Shown here: one piece after another, positions 4,375 to 11,046 of the stretch
How the letters are laid out: each line of letters starts with the position of its first letter
Numbering within the stretch: position 1 is the stretch's first letter
Source: Falseniella ignava CCUG 37419
GTDB lineage: Bacteria; Bacillota; Bacilli; Lactobacillales; Aerococcaceae
DNA length: 55,149 nucleotides
Direction: 5' to 3'
Assembly: GCF_000301055.1 (NCBI RefSeq)
Contig: NZ_JH932301.1
Span: 270,879-326,027, forward strand
Notes under the pieces: model-generated
The model's database searches: none
What the model saw: only the letters and a program-made list of their open reading frames with translations
Told to the model about the DNA's origin: nothing
Position numbers and translations under genes: made by a program

Positions 4375-5133
4375 ATGCCAGTAAATAAATTTGAAATTAA
4401 AGATTTAGATTTCTTCTATGGGGATTTCCAAGCTCTTCACAAAATTAATATGGATATTGAGGAGAAATTAGTAACGGCATTAATTGGCCCTTCTGGTTGC
4501 GGGAAATCGACCTTTTTAAAAATTTTAAATCGAATGCAAGATCTAATTCCAGGCACGCGCGTGGAAGGGGATGTCTTGCTTGATGGTCAAGATATTTTCC
4601 AAAAAGGTTACGATGTGAACCAATTACGCAAACAAGTTGGAATGGTGTTCCAGCATCCGAACCCTTTCCCTAAAAGTATATACGACAATATTGCCTACGG
4701 GCCAAGAACGCATGGTATTAAAGACTCAACCGAATTAGACCGAATCGTCGAGGAAAGTTTGAAGTCTGCCGCTATTTGGGATGAAGTTAAAGACAAATTG
4801 GATAAGCCTGCTACAGCGATATCAGGGGGGCAACAACAAAGAATTTGTATAGCCCGTGCAATTGCCAATCAGCCCGAAGTTCTATTGATGGACGAACCAA
4901 CATCGGCTCTAGACCCAATCTCGACCGGTAAGATTGAAGAGTTAATTGAAGAATTAAAGAAAACTTACACGGTAGTCATCGTCACACACAATATGCAACA
5001 AGCTGCCCGTATTTCCGATAAAACCGCTTTCTTTTTAACGGGAGAAATGATAGAATTTGATGATACAGAGATTATCTTTACCAATCCAACAGATCAACGA
5101 ACAGACGATTACATTTCGGGTCGATTTGGTTAA
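4375..5133 (+). CDS. pstB: Phosphate ABC transporter ATPase PstB
   Basis: Cytoplasmic ATPase that powers PstCA, 252 aa. It has Walker [10 protein letters not shown] (38-46), a Q-loop, the signature SGGQQQR (150-156), Walker B with D173-E174 ([11 protein letters not shown]) and the switch histidine in VIVTHN. Full-length and typical of PstB. It begins one base after pstA behind an AAGGAGG-like site in the pstA 3' end. phoU follows after 17 bp, completing the transport and sensing unit. Confidence 0.95.
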
Positions 5134-5150
5134 TAAAGGAGTGAAGTGAC

Positions 5151-5816
5151 ATGAGAAAGTCTTTCCAAAATGAATTAGAACAATACCGTGATCATTTAAC
5201 GTATATTGCGAATGCGGCGAATGAAGCAATCTACAAAGCCATTCAATCATTGAATCAACACGATCAAGTTTTGGCTGAAGAAGTCGTTAATGGCGATTTA
5301 AAGATTAATACTTTAGCCATTCAAATTGAACAAGAGGCTTACCGAATTATTGCACTGCAACAACCTGTTGCGTCAGATTTACGTAAAGTCTTTGCGGTAT
5401 TATTGGCCAGTTCGGATATTGAGCGATTAGCTGACCATGCAAGTAATATTGCAGGGACAGTGATTCGTCGTCAAAATATCCCAATGGTGCGTGAAGCAGC
5501 AATTGATGAGATTATTAATCAAATGGCCGATATCGTGAAAGTGATGTTATCTGATGCGATTGAAGCATTTATTCAAGAAGATGCCACTAAAGCGCGAGAA
5601 GTAGCACTGCGCGATAATGAAGTGGATAGACTGCTGAAAGAAGTTTATGATCAAACAAATCATCTTATGTTGACACATACAGATGAAGACCGTATCGAAA
5701 TCGCACGGGATTATGTGATTATCGCCAAAGCGCTCGAGCGTATGGGAGACTATGTGACAAATATTTGCGAGCGGATTGTCTATATGGAATCTGGCGAGAT
5801 TGTAGAACTTGACTAA
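5151..5816 (+). CDS. phoU: Phosphate-signalling regulator PhoU
   Basis: All-helical PhoU protein, 221 aa, with two repeats of a three-helix bundle. The family's metal-site segments are visible as SDIERLADHASNIA (about 91-104) and ALERMGDYVTNI (about 193-204). In this family PhoU links the Pst transporter to the sensor kinase and dampens the phosphate-starvation response when phosphate is plentiful. The start follows AAAGGAG. It is the last gene of the pst operon, and an inverted repeat lies shortly after it. Confidence 0.92.
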   Translation: MRKSFQNELEQYRDHLTYIANAANEAIYKAIQSLNQHDQVLAEEVVNGDLKINTLAIQIEQEAYRIIALQQPVASDLRKVFAVLLASSDIERLADHASNIAGTVIRRQNIPMVREAAIDEIINQMADIVKVMLSDAIEAFIQEDATKAREVALRDNEVDRLLKEVYDQTNHLMLTHTDEDRIEIARDYVIIAKALERMGDYVTNICERIVYMESGEIVELD

Positions 5817-5840
5817 AGTTATGTGAGCCCACGATGAAGT

Positions 5841-5887
5841 GAGCTGCCCCCAAAAGTTAGACCAAAAATCTAACTTCTGGGGGTTTT
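5841..5887 (+). terminator. Terminator hairpin resembling an IS3-family (IS150-type) end
   Basis: A 15-bp stem with one mismatch (5847-5861 with 5869-5883) is followed by TTTT, so it can end the pst-phoU transcript. The left arm, CCCCCAAAAGTTAGAC, looks like the terminal repeat of IS150-group elements. No transposase is attached. A related hairpin lies at 10014-10077, on the other side of the phosphatase cluster. The IS link is from remembered family consensus. Confidence 0.65.
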
Positions 5888-5984
5888 ATTATGAGATGAA
5901 GCCCAATAATATTCCGACAAAAAGTCTTGAGATCAAGTCAGCTGGGGTTGTATTGCTTTTTTTGAAAATGTATGACAGAAAATA

Positions 5985-6038
5985 TTTACAGTAACTTTAC
6001 AGTAGTTTTACCTAAAAACTACTTCGAGTTGTTAATAT
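5985..6038 (+). promoter_or_regulatory. PhoP-type operator and promoter of the alkaline phosphatase gene
   Basis: TTTACA (5985), TTTACA (5996) and TTTACC (6007) lie 11 bp apart, followed by a -10-like TAATAT at 6033-6038, 26 nt after the start of the last hexamer. This is the same register as at pstC and the distal pstS, and supports PhoP control of the phosphatase. Confidence 0.8.
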
Positions 6039-6094
6039 GAGTATGAAATCATATGTATTTCAAAAATTATTAAAAAAAGAGGAGCATAGAGAAC

Positions 6095-7933
6095 ATGAAA
6101 AAAACAATCTTGAAGACCTTGTCAACAGCGTTATTTTTATCAACATTAAGCCCTGTTGCGGTCTTAGCCAAGCAAGAAGAAGGGCAATTTTCAGAATTAC
6201 CAGTTGTGGCATTAGAAGAAGGGAGAGCACTCACGGAAGACTTAAGCTTAATTAGTGAAAGTCAAGCCAAATATGTCTTCTTATTTATTGGGGATGGTAT
6301 GGGAAATATTCCAGTATCTGCGGCTGAATATTTCTTAGGACCTGATAATGGAAATGAAGGTAAAGGGCGAGCCCAAGCTCAACCTTTAAACTTCTCTCAA
6401 TTCCCAGTGATTGGTTTGCAAAATCCAACTGATGCCGACCACTATGTGCCAGATTCGGCAGCAACTGCAACCGCTTTTGGAAATGGTGTTAAGATTGATT
6501 CAAATGTGATTGGTTTAACACCAGGTTATACTGAACAGACGGAATCTGTGGCTGAAAAAGCAAAAAACGATGGTAAGTCAGTAGGGATTTTATCTACCGT
6601 TACTTTAAACCATGCGACTCCAGCAGCCTTCTATGCTAATGTAGAACACCGTCGTAATTACTACGAAATTGGCGAACAAATGGCTTTATCTAACTTTGAT
6701 TACTTTGCAGGTGGGTCTTTAGGTCGTCGTACTGGCGATAATAAAGACCAAAAAGACCTCTATGAAGTAATGGAAGAAAATGGATACACTGTAGCAGAAA
6801 CCAAAGAAGAGTTCGAAGCCATTACTGCTGAAACAGGTAAAGTATATGCTCCTTCTGAAGTAATGTCAGATGCGGATGGCTCCTCTATGAAATACGCCAT
6901 TGACCAAGAAGAAGGTGAACAAACCTTAGCAGATATGGTAGCAAAAGGTATAGAAGTATTATCTACTAATGAAAATGGATTCTTCATGATGACTGAATCT
7001 GGTAAGATTGACTGGGCAGAACATGCCAACGATGCAGCAACAACCGTCAAAGAAGTGATCGATTTCCAAAATGCTATCCAAGAAGCGGTTGATTTCTACT
7101 ATGAACACCCAGAAGAAACTTTGATTGTTGTAACTGCTGACCACCCAACCGGAGGCTTTACCATTGGTAACTCTGAAACAGGTTATAACTCTTATTTCCA
7201 CTTATTAAATAACCAAAAAGTTTCTCAAGAAAAATTTGATACCATTTTTGCTGAATTACTAGAGGCTAACCCAGAATTAACTTTTGAAGAATTCCTACCA
7301 ACTATTGAAGCGAATTTTGGTTTTGTATTTGACTTAGAAGCAAGTGAAGATGTGTTGACTTTTGGTGAACTCGAAGCGGCTGAAGAAGCAGGTGAAGTGG
7401 AAGAAAAAGACTTAATGCTAGTGACTCCTTATGAATTAGAGGAATTAAAATATGCTTTCGAACAATCTAAATTACCATTTGAAGAACGTAATGCCGGTCA
7501 ATCAGATATTATCAAGGGGTATCATTCATACCTACCAATCTCTATTGCTTCCACACGTTTACTTGCCCGTAAAGCGGGTCTAGCCTTTACAACCGTTGAC
7601 CACTCTCCAGAACGTGTACCTGTTTATGCTATTGGTGCTGGTGCTGCTATGTTTGAAGGAAACTATGAAAATATCGACATTGCATACAAGTTACTCGCAG
7701 CTATGGGTCTTTATGAAGGCGGCGACACAAAGGTTGACAAAATTACGGTCACAGGTAAGGTTGATGCAAGTCAAGAAAACATTTCTGAAGAGACTAACCA
7801 ACCAGGTGATGACTCGAGTGAAGTATCTGAAGAATCCGAAGAATCAAGTGAAGATAGTTCTGAAGAGGAAAGCGCTGAACAAGAAATTGTAGAAGAAAGC
7901 TCAGAGGAATCTTCTGAAGAAGCTACTGAATAA
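6095..7933 (+). CDS. phoA: Secreted alkaline phosphatase with acidic Ser/Glu tail
   Basis: Metal-dependent phosphomonoesterase that releases phosphate from organic esters outside the cell, 612 aa. A cleavable signal peptide (about 1-25, VLA before K26) is followed by metal ligand D67 in FIGDGMG, nucleophile S121 in PDSAATATAFGNG, the metal-site segments TESGKIDWAEHA and TADHPTGG, and a late VDHSPERVPV histidine. It is longer than typical PhoA (about 450-480 aa), owing to an acidic insert near 410-450 and a tail (about 570-612) made almost wholly of Ser and Glu. There is no LPXTG motif, so anchoring, if any, is not by sortase. It follows a GGAG site and the Pho-type promoter. Confidence 0.9.
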   Translation: MKKTILKTLSTALFLSTLSPVAVLAKQEEGQFSELPVVALEEGRALTEDLSLISESQAKYVFLFIGDGMGNIPVSAAEYFLGPDNGNEGKGRAQAQPLNFSQFPVIGLQNPTDADHYVPDSAATATAFGNGVKIDSNVIGLTPGYTEQTESVAEKAKNDGKSVGILSTVTLNHATPAAFYANVEHRRNYYEIGEQMALSNFDYFAGGSLGRRTGDNKDQKDLYEVMEENGYTVAETKEEFEAITAETGKVYAPSEVMSDADGSSMKYAIDQEEGEQTLADMVAKGIEVLSTNENGFFMMTESGKIDWAEHANDAATTVKEVIDFQNAIQEAVDFYYEHPEETLIVVTADHPTGGFTIGNSETGYNSYFHLLNNQKVSQEKFDTIFAELLEANPELTFEEFLPTIEANFGFVFDLEASEDVLTFGELEAAEEAGEVEEKDLMLVTPYELEELKYAFEQSKLPFEERNAGQSDIIKGYHSYLPISIASTRLLARKAGLAFTTVDHSPERVPVYAIGAGAAMFEGNYENIDIAYKLLAAMGLYEGGDTKVDKITVTGKVDASQENISEETNQPGDDSSEVSEESEESSEDSSEEESAEQEIVEESSEESSEEATE

Positions 7934-7962
7934 CTCAGCCTTCTCAACAAAATGATGACTTT

Positions 7963-7995
7963 AAGCATGGGGTGGGTTAGAACCCTGTGCTTTTT
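7963..7995 (+). terminator. Partial terminator after phoA
   Basis: AAGCATGGGGT (7963-7973) pairs imperfectly with ACCCTGTGCTT (7982-7992), followed by a short T run. It lies between phoA and the next gene, 18 bp before that start, so it may lower rather than abolish readthrough into the two downstream secreted-protein genes. Confidence 0.6.
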
Positions 7996-8012
7996 AGTTT
8001 AAAGGAGTAATT

Positions 8013-8624
8013 ATGTACAAAAATTTTATCAAGAGTTTGATATGTCTTTTCGTTCTATTGCCGGCGGGTATAACTCATAGAATTCAGGGCATGGAGTTAA
8101 AGGATTTACCCTTTGAAGGTTACTATATTAATCAAGAAGACAATGCCATCGAAGGATTGGTGTTTAAAGAGAATGAATTGTATGTTTATGTAAAGGTCCT
8201 TGAAGCTATTGATGAAGATCTGGCAGGTTACGAGGATCTAACCCAGTTAACGGAATTTCATTCTTTTCCTTATCCAGACTTAAACGCCTATAGCCAGTCG
8301 GTAAAACAGGTCTATATGGAAGAATTTAATTTACCTTTTGATTTACAGGAAATTTATCAAAATCTCCTAAATCAAATTGAGCCAAAGATGTCTCAAGAAG
8401 ATGTGCTCCACCTACTTAATCAGGAAATTCCTGGCATTTATTATACTCAAAGAGCGGGCTATCACTATTTTATCATTGCAAACCCTAGTGTTACTGAGGT
8501 GGATGATGGCTGGCAAGTTTTTCTATTCGGTCAGGAACTTTTCACTTTCAAACAAGCAGGACAAAAGATACTAGATCACGCCGGTCGAGAATTCGAGTAT
8601 GTGGATGGCATTATGCCCCATTAG
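8013..8624 (+). CDS. Secreted protein of unknown function downstream of phoA
   Basis: 203 aa, not recognised. The N-terminus (about 1-27) is a signal peptide with a basic start and a hydrophobic core. No Cys lipobox and no other membrane segment is seen, so it should be exported and released. The mature part is acidic and rich in aromatic residues, with segments such as YYINQEDNAIEG and VFLFGQELFTFKQAG that suggest a small beta-rich domain. It follows AAAGGAG, and the next secreted-protein gene starts 11 bp after its stop. Position behind a Pho-controlled phosphatase suggests a role in phosphate scavenging or phosphatase maturation, which is only inference. Confidence 0.75.
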   Translation: MYKNFIKSLICLFVLLPAGITHRIQGMELKDLPFEGYYINQEDNAIEGLVFKENELYVYVKVLEAIDEDLAGYEDLTQLTEFHSFPYPDLNAYSQSVKQVYMEEFNLPFDLQEIYQNLLNQIEPKMSQEDVLHLLNQEIPGIYYTQRAGYHYFIIANPSVTEVDDGWQVFLFGQELFTFKQAGQKILDHAGREFEYVDGIMPH

Positions 8625-8635
8625 AAGGAGAAATC

Positions 8636-9835
8636 ATGAAGAAAAAAATAGTCAATTACACCCTGATTCTTAGCTTAATGGTGGGATCTTTTCATAGTCT
8701 AATTCAGGTTCAAGCGAACGAATCTTCAACTGAGGATTCAACAGAAAAGGTCGCTCAGTCCTCTCAAGACGTGACAGAAGGTGAAGATGATCACGTCAAT
8801 CATGGACATCATCACCACCATGATCATAATGAAGAAGAGATAGAAGACTTACCTGACCATATTCAATCTATCAAGTCCTCTTTTGTCGATCATCATCATA
8901 ACCATGGCATTAAGCGAGCTAATTTCATCCCAGAGGAAATTCTGAATCCTGATGATTCAACTTATCAAGCTCCTAGAGAAGTAGCAGATTATCAGGGGTT
9001 TTACCAAGGGAATCTCCGTTTAGAGGAGCTAGGTGTTGATTTAAAAATTATTTTATCCATCGAAGATGATGGTCTTTTTAACCTAGCATATTACTTTGTT
9101 CAAGATGAAGATAACCGAGGTCAACGCTTTTATGCAGATGACCAGGGACAAGTGCGGTCACGCCCAGCAATCTATAACGACTTGGTTATTATGACTGGCG
9201 GCTTGAAGGAAGGAGAAGTTGGACTATTCGGTGGATTGATTCGTAAGACCCTTTCGCCGGTTGTGTTATTAGGACAAAGTGGGCAACCGGTTGCTCTATA
9301 TCCTTATACGAATATGGCTTATGACTTAAGAGAAACTTATCGTAAGTATCGTATCTACCAAAACATCGGTCTTTATTTGACAGAAGGTAGTGTTTATATC
9401 GATGTGAATCATCTGATTGGCTTGGATTCAGAGACTTCTTATCAAGTGGAATTAGAACGATTCGAGGAGGAGAGTGAGGATCATTTCTTAGTAGAAAAGT
9501 ATAGCTATGAAATCTTACAAGAATCCTTTGATCAATATTTAGTCGATCATAATGATTTTGCCTTTGATTTTGAGACAGCGAATGACTTCCTTCAAGAAAT
9601 TTTAGCTATGCATTTACAAACTAATCGCTCTTTTCCATTGGATACAAAGATTTCGATGGTTGATCCAAGCCAAGTTGCAGTTGACCTGGGAGAAGATCGA
9701 TTCATTAAATGGGCATTTATTATTGACCAGGCAGAGTTATATCTATACGATGGTGAGTCAGTTTATTTAGCGGATGGCTTACATAAAGAAGGCGGAATTT
9801 ATCACGCAGACCAATGGATAAAATCAAAAAATTAA
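8636..9835 (+). CDS. Secreted protein with His-rich metal-binding segment
   Basis: 399 aa, not assigned to a family. A signal peptide (about 1-28, VQA before N29) is followed by a Ser/Glu linker and a histidine-rich stretch (about 54-65, GHHHHHDHN), with a second cluster near 84-89 (DHHHNHG). The rest (about 105-399) resembles a beta-rich domain without recognised motifs. The gene is 11 bp behind another secreted-protein gene and near the Zn/Mg-dependent alkaline phosphatase. Such histidine runs usually bind zinc or other transition metals. A role in capturing or delivering metal to the phosphatase is plausible but unproven. The start follows AAGGAG. Confidence 0.75.
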   Translation: MKKKIVNYTLILSLMVGSFHSLIQVQANESSTEDSTEKVAQSSQDVTEGEDDHVNHGHHHHHDHNEEEIEDLPDHIQSIKSSFVDHHHNHGIKRANFIPEEILNPDDSTYQAPREVADYQGFYQGNLRLEELGVDLKIILSIEDDGLFNLAYYFVQDEDNRGQRFYADDQGQVRSRPAIYNDLVIMTGGLKEGEVGLFGGLIRKTLSPVVLLGQSGQPVALYPYTNMAYDLRETYRKYRIYQNIGLYLTEGSVYIDVNHLIGLDSETSYQVELERFEEESEDHFLVEKYSYEILQESFDQYLVDHNDFAFDFETANDFLQEILAMHLQTNRSFPLDTKISMVDPSQVAVDLGEDRFIKWAFIIDQAELYLYDGESVYLADGLHKEGGIYHADQWIKSKN

Positions 9836-9888
9836 AAATGAAAGAATATAATTCTCTTAAAGCAGAAAATAAAGATAGTAGCTATTTT

Positions 9889-10016
9889 AGGAGGTGTATT
9901 TTGTTTTGGTAGGCTTGCCACTCTTGGGCAAGGTTAATGACTCTATTGATGCACTACAAGTAAGCAAAAAATCACAGGTGTGGTTATTGAGAAAGGAAGC
10001 CCCTCGCTTAAGTTGA
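9889..10016 (+). other. Possible 36-codon open frame in the gap before the first pstS
   Basis: The gap 9836-10155 holds no recognised gene. AGGAGG (9889-9894) precedes a TTG-started frame, 9906-10016, ending in the hairpin region. Its product (segments VGLPLLGKVND and SKKSQVWLLRKE) matches nothing I know. It may be a tiny peptide gene or a gene remnant. TATAAT at 10120-10125 is a likely -10 for the following pstS-type gene. Confidence 0.25.
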
Positions 10017-10077
10017 GCCCCAAAAGTTAGACTAAATTTAACTTTTGAGATCGCAACAGTTATGTGGGCTTTTTTTG
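10014..10077 (+). terminator. Terminator with IS150-like arm, related to the one after phoU
   Basis: An inner stem (CAAAAGTTA 10021-10029 with TAACTTTTG 10039-10047) and an outer AGCCC/GGGCT pairing are followed by seven T (10070-10076). The left arm shares CCCCAAAAGTTAGAC with the hairpin at 5841-5887 in the same orientation. Confidence 0.6.
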
Positions 10078-10155
10078 TTTGAATCAAGTCTGAAGGTGGC
10101 ATCAAAGGTGAAGTCCGACTATAATGAAAGGTAGAACATGCAAGGAGGCACTATT

Positions 10156-11046
10156 ATGATTAAGAAGAAATATTTTACCTTACTATTAAGTATTTTATTA
10201 TTTATCCCTATTCGATCGGTTTCAGCTCAATCGGGACTGATTACCATTGTTTCTCGCGAAGATGGTTCAGGGACGCGCCAAGCTTTTACTCAAATTATGG
10301 GCGTCACCGATGAGCTGGGCGATGATATTACGACCTTTGAAGCGAATATCCAAAATCAAACGAGTGGCGCCATGCAAGTCGTTGCTAATGATCGTCAAGC
10401 AATTAGTTATATTTCGTTAGGCTCAGTTGATGACTCTGTTAAAATTTTAGCGGTAGACGGTGTCATGCCTACCCCAGAAACAGTGAATGATGGTAGTTAC
10501 CCAATTTCTCGACCATTTCTATTAACATGGGGTAAGGAATTAACGGATTTACAAAACGACTTCCTCTCATTTATTCATTCGAAGCAAGGACAAACGATTG
10601 TAGAATCGGCTGGTTTTATTGCAGTTTCTGAAAAGGAATCGATGCAAAGTGAGGATAATAGTGAGTCACTCATCGACAGATTGCCAGATTATAAAGCTAA
10701 CTCATCTCTTAAAGGAACGATTGAGTTAGTTGGGTCAACCTCTGTCACTCCTGTCTTGGAGCAATTGGCTGAAGTATATAGTGAATTAACCGGCGTCAAA
10801 GTCAATATCCAATCTACAGGTTCATCAGCAGGCATTCAAGCAGCCCTCGAAGGAACAGCTGATTTTGGGATGTCTTCTCGAGCATTAAGCGAAGCTGAAG
10901 ATGAGAAATTAGAATCATCGATTATTGCTCAAGATACCATCGCGGTGATTGTTAACCCCGATAATCCGCTAACGAGTTTAAGCTTAGAAGATATCCGAGG
11001 TATTTTTATTGGGGGTATTGAAGACTGGTCCCAAGTTACGAAGTAG
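10156..11046 (+). CDS. PstS-type phosphate-binding protein, proximal copy, permuted domain order
   Basis: Extracellular binding protein, 296 aa, with a signal peptide ending at VSA (about 24). There is no lipobox Cys, although Gram-positive PstS proteins are usually lipoproteins. The lobe that is C-terminal in Bacillus PstS (SREDGSGTRQAF, then SYISLGSVDDSVK and FIHSKQGQTIV) comes first, at about 28-170. The usual N-terminal lobe (GSTSVTPVLEQL, GSSAGIQAA, MSSRAL) follows at about 196-296. I recall the same order in pneumococcal PstS. ATG 10156 is chosen because AAGGAGG lies at 10142-10148. Its upstream region has no TTTACA repeats, so it may be expressed differently from the distal copy. mutT follows after 17 bp. 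Confidence 0.85.
   Translation: MIKKKYFTLLLSILLFIPIRSVSAQSGLITIVSREDGSGTRQAFTQIMGVTDELGDDITTFEANIQNQTSGAMQVVANDRQAISYISLGSVDDSVKILAVDGVMPTPETVNDGSYPISRPFLLTWGKELTDLQNDFLSFIHSKQGQTIVESAGFIAVSEKESMQSEDNSESLIDRLPDYKANSSLKGTIELVGSTSVTPVLEQLAEVYSELTGVKVNIQSTGSSAGIQAALEGTADFGMSSRALSEAEDEKLESSIIAQDTIAVIVNPDNPLTSLSLEDIRGIFIGGIEDWSQVTK

Follow-up and report, generated by a model that had tools for sequence, protein, structure and literature searches.

In Falseniella ignava and some other Facklamia-related Gram-positive bacteria, the gene for a special type of alkaline phosphatase (phoA) is followed by genes for two fast-evolving, apparently secreted proteins, at least one of which is His-rich, a combination that suggests a zinc-loading helper pair working under phosphate scarcity. 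The cassette was analyzed in a 55,149-nucleotide stretch of the F. ignava genome (referred to here as the window), where the gene order is pnpR-pnpS-pstC-pstA-pstB-phoU, then phoA, orf203, HIS399, a PstS-like gene, and a mutT-like gene. The initial annotation had described a secreted-looking His-rich protein at positions 8636-9835, some 0.7 kb behind phoA, and had proposed that it buffers metal outside the cell or supplies it to the phosphatase; the open reading frame (ORF) is indeed there, begins 0.7 kb 3' of the phoA stop (position 7933), and codes for 399 amino acid residues with a signal-peptide-like start (HIS399). That picture was without the second partner, orf203, another secreted-looking gene with a signal-peptide-like start that sits in the gap between phoA and HIS399 and belongs to the same cassette, and without the Pho-box-like repeats and the hairpin. 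The features of the cassette are as follows.

5985 to 6028, forward strand: Pho-box-like direct repeats, with TTTACA hexamers spaced by 11-nt steps and 20 of 24 letters matching; they begin 110 nt ahead of phoA
6095 to 7933, forward strand: phoA, long-form alkaline phosphatase of 612 aa with a signal-peptide-like start and an acidic Ser/Glu tail (PF00245, E = 1.4e-70)
7963 to 7992, forward strand: terminator-like hairpin with a T-run, between phoA and orf203 (RNAfold output)
8013 to 8624, forward strand: orf203 (partner 1), 203 aa; the His-rich loop found in half of its relatives is absent in the window copy
8636 to 9835, forward strand: HIS399 (partner 2), 399 aa; signal-peptide-like start, disordered His-rich N-terminal part, then a folded part
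8792 to 8827, forward strand: His-rich run, HIS399 residues 53-64, similar in Facklamia hominis
8888 to 8905, forward strand: D-H-H-H-N-H motif, HIS399 residues 85-90, just before ANFIP, conserved in 14 of 14 orthologues

A search of the 76 genomes of the window's family with a profile built from 11 HIS399 proteins detected HIS399 in 14 genomes, its own included, and left 62 without it; the closest named relative comes from F. hominis (79% identity). Full-length orf203 is found in the same 14 genomes (any match at all in 16, the extra two being weak only), and in every one of the 14 loci (the window and 13 others) the three genes follow each other in the order phoA-orf203-HIS399 on one strand. 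The co-occurrence with phoA that the initial annotation had proposed to check was thus borne out, with HIS399 lying two genes behind phoA in each of the 14 family genomes that encode it. The link has to be narrowed, however, because an alkaline phosphatase of some kind is encoded in 28 of the 76 genomes and 14 of these 28 lack HIS399: the pair belongs to one long PhoA subfamily and not to phoA in general. When compared to the window PhoA, the PhoA proteins of the 14 cassette genomes score from 951 to 1326 bits, the next one, from genome G004, scores 586 bits, and all others score at most 144.4 bits. In the order sample, HIS399 is present in 13 of 395 genomes, and PhoA proteins matching at an E value of 1e-60 or better are confined to the same 13 genomes and G004; in the class sample, 1 of 398 genomes matches HIS399, namely, its own. 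No HIS399 was found outside the window's family in these two samples, nor was there any match in the plasmid and phage collections. Genome G075 encodes a second, short PhoA besides the cassette one. The PhoA of G004 is of a related long type (58% identity to the window protein) and has Pho-box-like repeats in front of its gene, and neither partner is encoded beside that gene or elsewhere in the genome, so the long PhoA type has no strict need of the pair. This G004 gene (locus L086, positions 4961-6661) could serve as a naturally occurring control for the proposed helper role.

Two arrangements that the initial annotation had set against its proposal, a gene common far from phoA or one located near zinc-uptake genes, were not seen: no true orthologue was found away from phoA, and the three ZnuA-family genes of the F. 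ignava genome are on another contig. One weak HIS399 match, in genome G014, does adjoin a ZnuA gene, but it is a different protein, of 305 aa with ZinT and histidine-triad domains, encoded behind that ZnuA gene (locus L011, positions 2-2418). It matched HIS399 in a single-sequence search (E = 1.4e-5, 24 bits, 29% over residues 1-116), was not found with the HIS399 profile at 0.001, and was left out of the 14 orthologues.

Within seven ORFs on each side, the neighbors of the cassette vary between genera, some being common within a genus or to at most three genomes, and the pst operon is found in none of the 13 other loci. In the window, the PstS-like protein encoded at positions 10138-11046 has its halves arranged in the opposite order to that in some PstS proteins (4q8r, 4gd5) and is collinear with 4h1x, called PstS 2, a known arrangement; a second copy of its gene lies ∼4.6 kb further on, and PstS-like genes of this kind match at an E value of 1e-20 in 55 of the 76 family genomes. 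The partners evolve faster than the phosphatase, with a mean identity of 48-49% versus 79% for PhoA. The correlation of distances among the three proteins is moderate (Spearman coefficients of 0.39-0.49) and was given no weight as evidence.

The presumed client looks like an ordinary alkaline phosphatase. The window PhoA passes the curated PF00245 cut-off (238.8 bits versus 24.4), and its metal-site ligands and catalytic Ser (D67, S121, T175, E301, D306, H310, D349, H350, and H503) are the same in all 14 cassette proteins. PhoA enzymes need zinc and, because the cassette PhoA keeps these ligands and the catalytic serine, it should need zinc like any other. All 14 proteins have His and Trp at the positions that correspond to Escherichia coli PhoA residues 153 and 328. 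The long subfamily differs in having 149-154 residues between the E. coli positions 370 and 412, compared to 33-100 in the four short forms aligned, and in a tail whose last 40 residues are 53-93% Ser, Glu, Thr, and Asp. The G004 protein has the long spacing and lacks the tail, and the short PhoA of G029 has a similar tail and no partners. Simple LPxTG and lipobox patterns matched none of the three cassette proteins in any of the 14 genomes.

Upstream of phoA, all 14 cassettes carry four TTTACA-like hexamers at 11-nt steps, with scores of 18-23 out of 24 against the Pho-box motif, TTNACA-like direct repeats at this spacing. In 11 genomes, including that of the window, none of 500 dinucleotide shuffles reached the score, and in G031, G010, and G015, 1 or 2 of 500 did. 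The reverse strand scored 13-15, and other spacings scored lower, except in G010, where the 10-nt step gave 19. Similar repeats are seen before the phoA gene of G004 (score 21) and before pstC (score 19), both scores being without a shuffle control. By its upstream repeats, the cassette is a candidate member of the Pho regulon, with binding of the regulator predicted. Control by zinc limitation is unsupported: when the 400 nt preceding phoA were scanned with simple patterns, the AdcR-type one was matched nowhere and the loose Zur-type one in G016 only.

The gap between phoA and orf203 spans 67-126 nt and, as judged on RNAfold output, contains a hairpin with a T-run in all 14 cassettes. Two versions of a strict hairpin detector found it in 12 of 14 each (G031 was missed by both, G075 by the first, and G088 by the second), and with the second version, a hairpin of any kind turned up in 0-4 of 200 letter shuffles. 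Generic scans of the 4.6 kb at window positions 5700-10300 were at chance level for terminators (3 found versus 2.7 expected) and for promoters (12 versus 12.6), so the case for the hairpin rests on its repeated position in all 14 cassettes. The distance from the hairpin end to the orf203 start is 17-53 nt in the 12 cassettes measured, which leaves little room for a separate promoter. From this layout, we infer read-through past the hairpin, by which the partners would be made in smaller amounts than PhoA.

HIS399 has a signal-peptide-like N terminus, with a likely cut after VQA at residue 27 (by eye), and in the AlphaFold2 model its folded part begins at about residue 95-110. The two His runs, placed by the initial annotation at about residues 54-65 and 84-89, lie within one or two residues of those positions, at 53-64 (HVNHGHHHHHDH) and 86-90 (HHHNH). 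The whole genome (98% complete) contains a single instance of the DNA pattern of four His codons, one pyrimidine-ending codon, and a His codon, and none of its backward control. Among the 14 orthologues, all have, before the folded part, an HHx(1-2)H motif and, no more than a few residues later, A[NS][FY][IL]P; the N-terminal part is otherwise variable in length and sequence. A His-rich stretch, defined as at least 6 His in 30 residues, is found in HIS399 of 8 and in orf203 of 7 of the 14 genomes, so that at least one partner has it in every genome, compared to none of 247 other ORFs from the window and the 13 related loci (mechanically called ORFs of at least 70 aa, not all of which are real genes). 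In the window and in F. hominis, the stretch is in HIS399 and not in orf203; in G002, G022, and G017, it is in orf203, and HIS399 has little beyond the motif. Three His columns in the HIS399 core (window residues 259, 305, and 326) are kept in 13, 11, and 12 of 14 sequences, respectively, and the orf203 alignment contains no invariant His. In both proteins, most of the invariant columns fall in the folded parts.

Nine distant orf203-like proteins encoded away from phoA, and two look-alikes encoded next to them, do not exceed 4 His in 30 residues. Such distant proteins, without a His stretch, are encoded in tandem at L077 (5132-6480), L078 (5215-6496), and L079 (4259-5540), where they adjoin genes for a GHKL sensor-like protein and a LytTR response regulator (Pfam assignments from L077 only).

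In the window, both partner proteins score below the Pfam and NCBIfam cut-offs. At an E value of 1, the Pfam ZinT profile matched none of 11 orf203 and 11 HIS399 proteins, and the Pfam Pht profile matched none of the 11 HIS399 proteins; the best Pfam rows among the members, with E = 0.002 for orf203 (YodL, 3 of 11 proteins) and 0.0079 for HIS399 (2 of 11 proteins), are considered not credible. A PDB sequence search with both partner profiles gave nothing better than an E value of 0.7. AlphaFold2 modeled orf203 with a pLDDT of 78.6 and HIS399, poorly, with 58.2, and a Foldseek comparison of the two models to PDB returned nothing under E = 0.001. The matches found by VIA-align are lipocalin-like, YedD being the best for both orf203 (Z = 6.5) and HIS399 (Z = 9.0), on a scale where a best Z of 7-8 is typical of models without a clear match. 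The orf203 model also matched ZinT (4arh, Z = 5.4) and the ZinT-like domain of AdcA (7jja, Z = 5.3), tied with unrelated lipocalin-like proteins. Given the poor HIS399 model and the best Z values typical of unmatched models, no family is claimed; at these weak scores, the partner folds look lipocalin-like, which provides leads rather than membership. Homology between HIS399 and orf203 was rejected, as hhalign aligned 22 columns only (probability 60).

The reading that we prefer, with its chances appearing evenly balanced, is that orf203 and HIS399 constitute a dedicated extracellular zinc-loading helper pair for one PhoA subfamily, made below the amount of the enzyme. Both would be made from the same phosphate-starvation transcript as phoA, but their yield would be lower owing to the terminator-like hairpin behind phoA. 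Zinc would be collected extracellularly by the His-rich stretches of HIS399, of the orf203 loop, or of both, together with the HHx(1-2)H motif; the folded, probably lipocalin-like, parts would dock on newly secreted PhoA, and the docked partners would pass the metal to its two-zinc site. The constant gene order, the subfamily linkage, the motif and the His stretch present in all 14 genomes, the retained ligands, the repeats, the hairpin, and the fast evolution of the partners jointly suggest such a function, and the hairpin behind phoA is what would be expected if the helper is needed in less than enzyme amounts. The strongest point against it is G004, with its related PhoA and no pair, and partners are likewise missing for the other PhoA types of the family. 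The length of the His-rich stretch is variable and its place shifts between the two proteins, as would be expected of a buffer under loose constraint. The lack of an invariant His in orf203, the poor HIS399 model, the weak resemblance of orf203 to ZinT, the three Pho-box-like scores (of 14) reached by shuffles, and the better 10-nt step in G010 count on the same side. A more elaborate version, which we regard as possible and advance tentatively, is a split zinc-loading machine for one secreted enzyme that consists of two unrelated, probably lipocalin-like secreted proteins, carries the zinc-storing His segment in either of them, is kept below the enzyme level via the hairpin, and in some genera is accompanied by a further, small protein that has DPHxP repeats and no visible signal peptide.

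Several other explanations would account for parts of these data. Lipase-specific foldases provide a logical analogue for a pair acting as a steric folding or release helper of this PhoA subfamily, with the His stretches secondary and used, for example, in sensing or tethering. The strict linkage, the concentration of invariant columns in the folded parts, and the weak likeness of both models to small lipocalin-like domains, including YedD, for which the structure of a complex with LptDE is available, would all fit; such a helper appears unlikely to us, and it leaves unexplained why all 14 genomes have the His motif and a His-rich stretch in one or the other partner. The fixed cassette of three secreted-looking proteins could also encode an extracellular phosphatase complex in which the two partners are stoichiometric subunits and serve to hold it at the cell surface or to capture substrate. 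The hairpin behind phoA argues for lower amounts of the partners, however, no LPxTG or lipobox pattern was matched in the three proteins, and the PhoA ligands are ordinary, which makes such a complex rather improbable.

The His-rich stretches themselves would suit a general extracellular zinc buffer or scavenger merely coexpressed with phoA, as would the presence, in 3 of 14 genomes, of genes for an E1-E2 P-type ATPase and a protein with a heavy-metal-associated domain close to the cassette and the weak match of the HIS399 N-terminal part to the ZinT/histidine-triad protein beside ZnuA in G014. A protein with so general a role is, nevertheless, distinctly improbable here: no orthologues were found without the long PhoA subfamily, the upstream region has Pho-box-like repeats and no AdcR-type match, and the ZnuA-family genes lie elsewhere in the genome. 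That all members come from a single bacterial family would be compatible with unrelated secreted genes hitchhiking by chance behind phoA, an explanation that can be given very little credence, since the outside neighbors differ between genera and the cassette is intact in all 14 genomes.

The proposed helper pair would work like PhtD or AztD, except that the client would be an enzyme and the signal phosphate starvation. Zinc transfer from a domain of PhtD of Streptococcus pneumoniae to AdcAII has been shown by NMR, and the Pht proteins are described as built from units with HxxHxH (PMC3842936); they are under AdcR control, according to a reference title in PMC6689063. PhtD resembles HIS399 in being a surface His-rich protein of a Gram-positive bacterium encoded in one operon with its client (PMC3842936). 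The client differs, AdcAII being a binding protein for zinc uptake and the presumed client of the cassette an enzyme. The cassette also has no Pht match in Pfam and no AdcR-type match, carries Pho-box-like repeats instead, and has phoA and orf203, not the gene for a zinc solute-binding protein (SBP), next to HIS399. AztD from Paracoccus and Citrobacter is presented in PMC6689063 as an extracytoplasmic zinc metallochaperone that hands zinc to the SBP AztC, with His-rich tracts that are located at the termini or in the interior in different homologues and are disordered in crystals. This variable placement is much like that of the moving His stretch of HIS399 and orf203, but the client AztC and the regulon differ from those of the cassette; there was no relevant Pfam or NCBIfam match to AztD (these libraries may have no AztD model), and no zinc ABC operon is conserved beside the cassette. 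The lipocalin-like zinc-binding fold of ZinT and of the ZinT-like domain of AdcA is among the weak matches of the orf203 model, at 5% identity in the fold match, but orf203 has neither a Pfam ZinT match nor an invariant His. Compared to PF00245 proteins at large, the cassette PhoA is ordinary by profile and ligands and differs in the longer 370-412 spacing and in the company of partners that other phoA genes of the family lack.

To our knowledge, secreted bacterial zinc enzymes are generally thought to acquire zinc unaided, and no bacterial PhoA-specific metal-loading helper was named among the matches listed in a literature search, for which subscription literature was largely out of range. 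If the proposed function is true, there would be an extracellular metal-loading system that serves an enzyme and not an uptake transporter, the phosphate-starvation response would be tied to zinc supply, and enzyme-specific extracellular metal loading would become testable in one small operon.

In 9 of the 14 cassettes (L101, L102, L104, L105, L106, L109, L110, L111, and L112), a small gene follows 7-25 nt behind HIS399 and codes for a protein of 47-128 aa with 1-4 DPHxP motifs; no such gene was found in the window. The protein has no signal peptide by eye and, in the 4 members tested, no Pfam match at E = 0.01; the motif takes the longer form DPHxPxHPRN in 6 of 9. The heavy-metal-associated domain and E1-E2 ATPase genes (Pfam assignments for three of these proteins) are located at L105 (2943-5116), L106 (3721-5893), and L108 (10950-14839).
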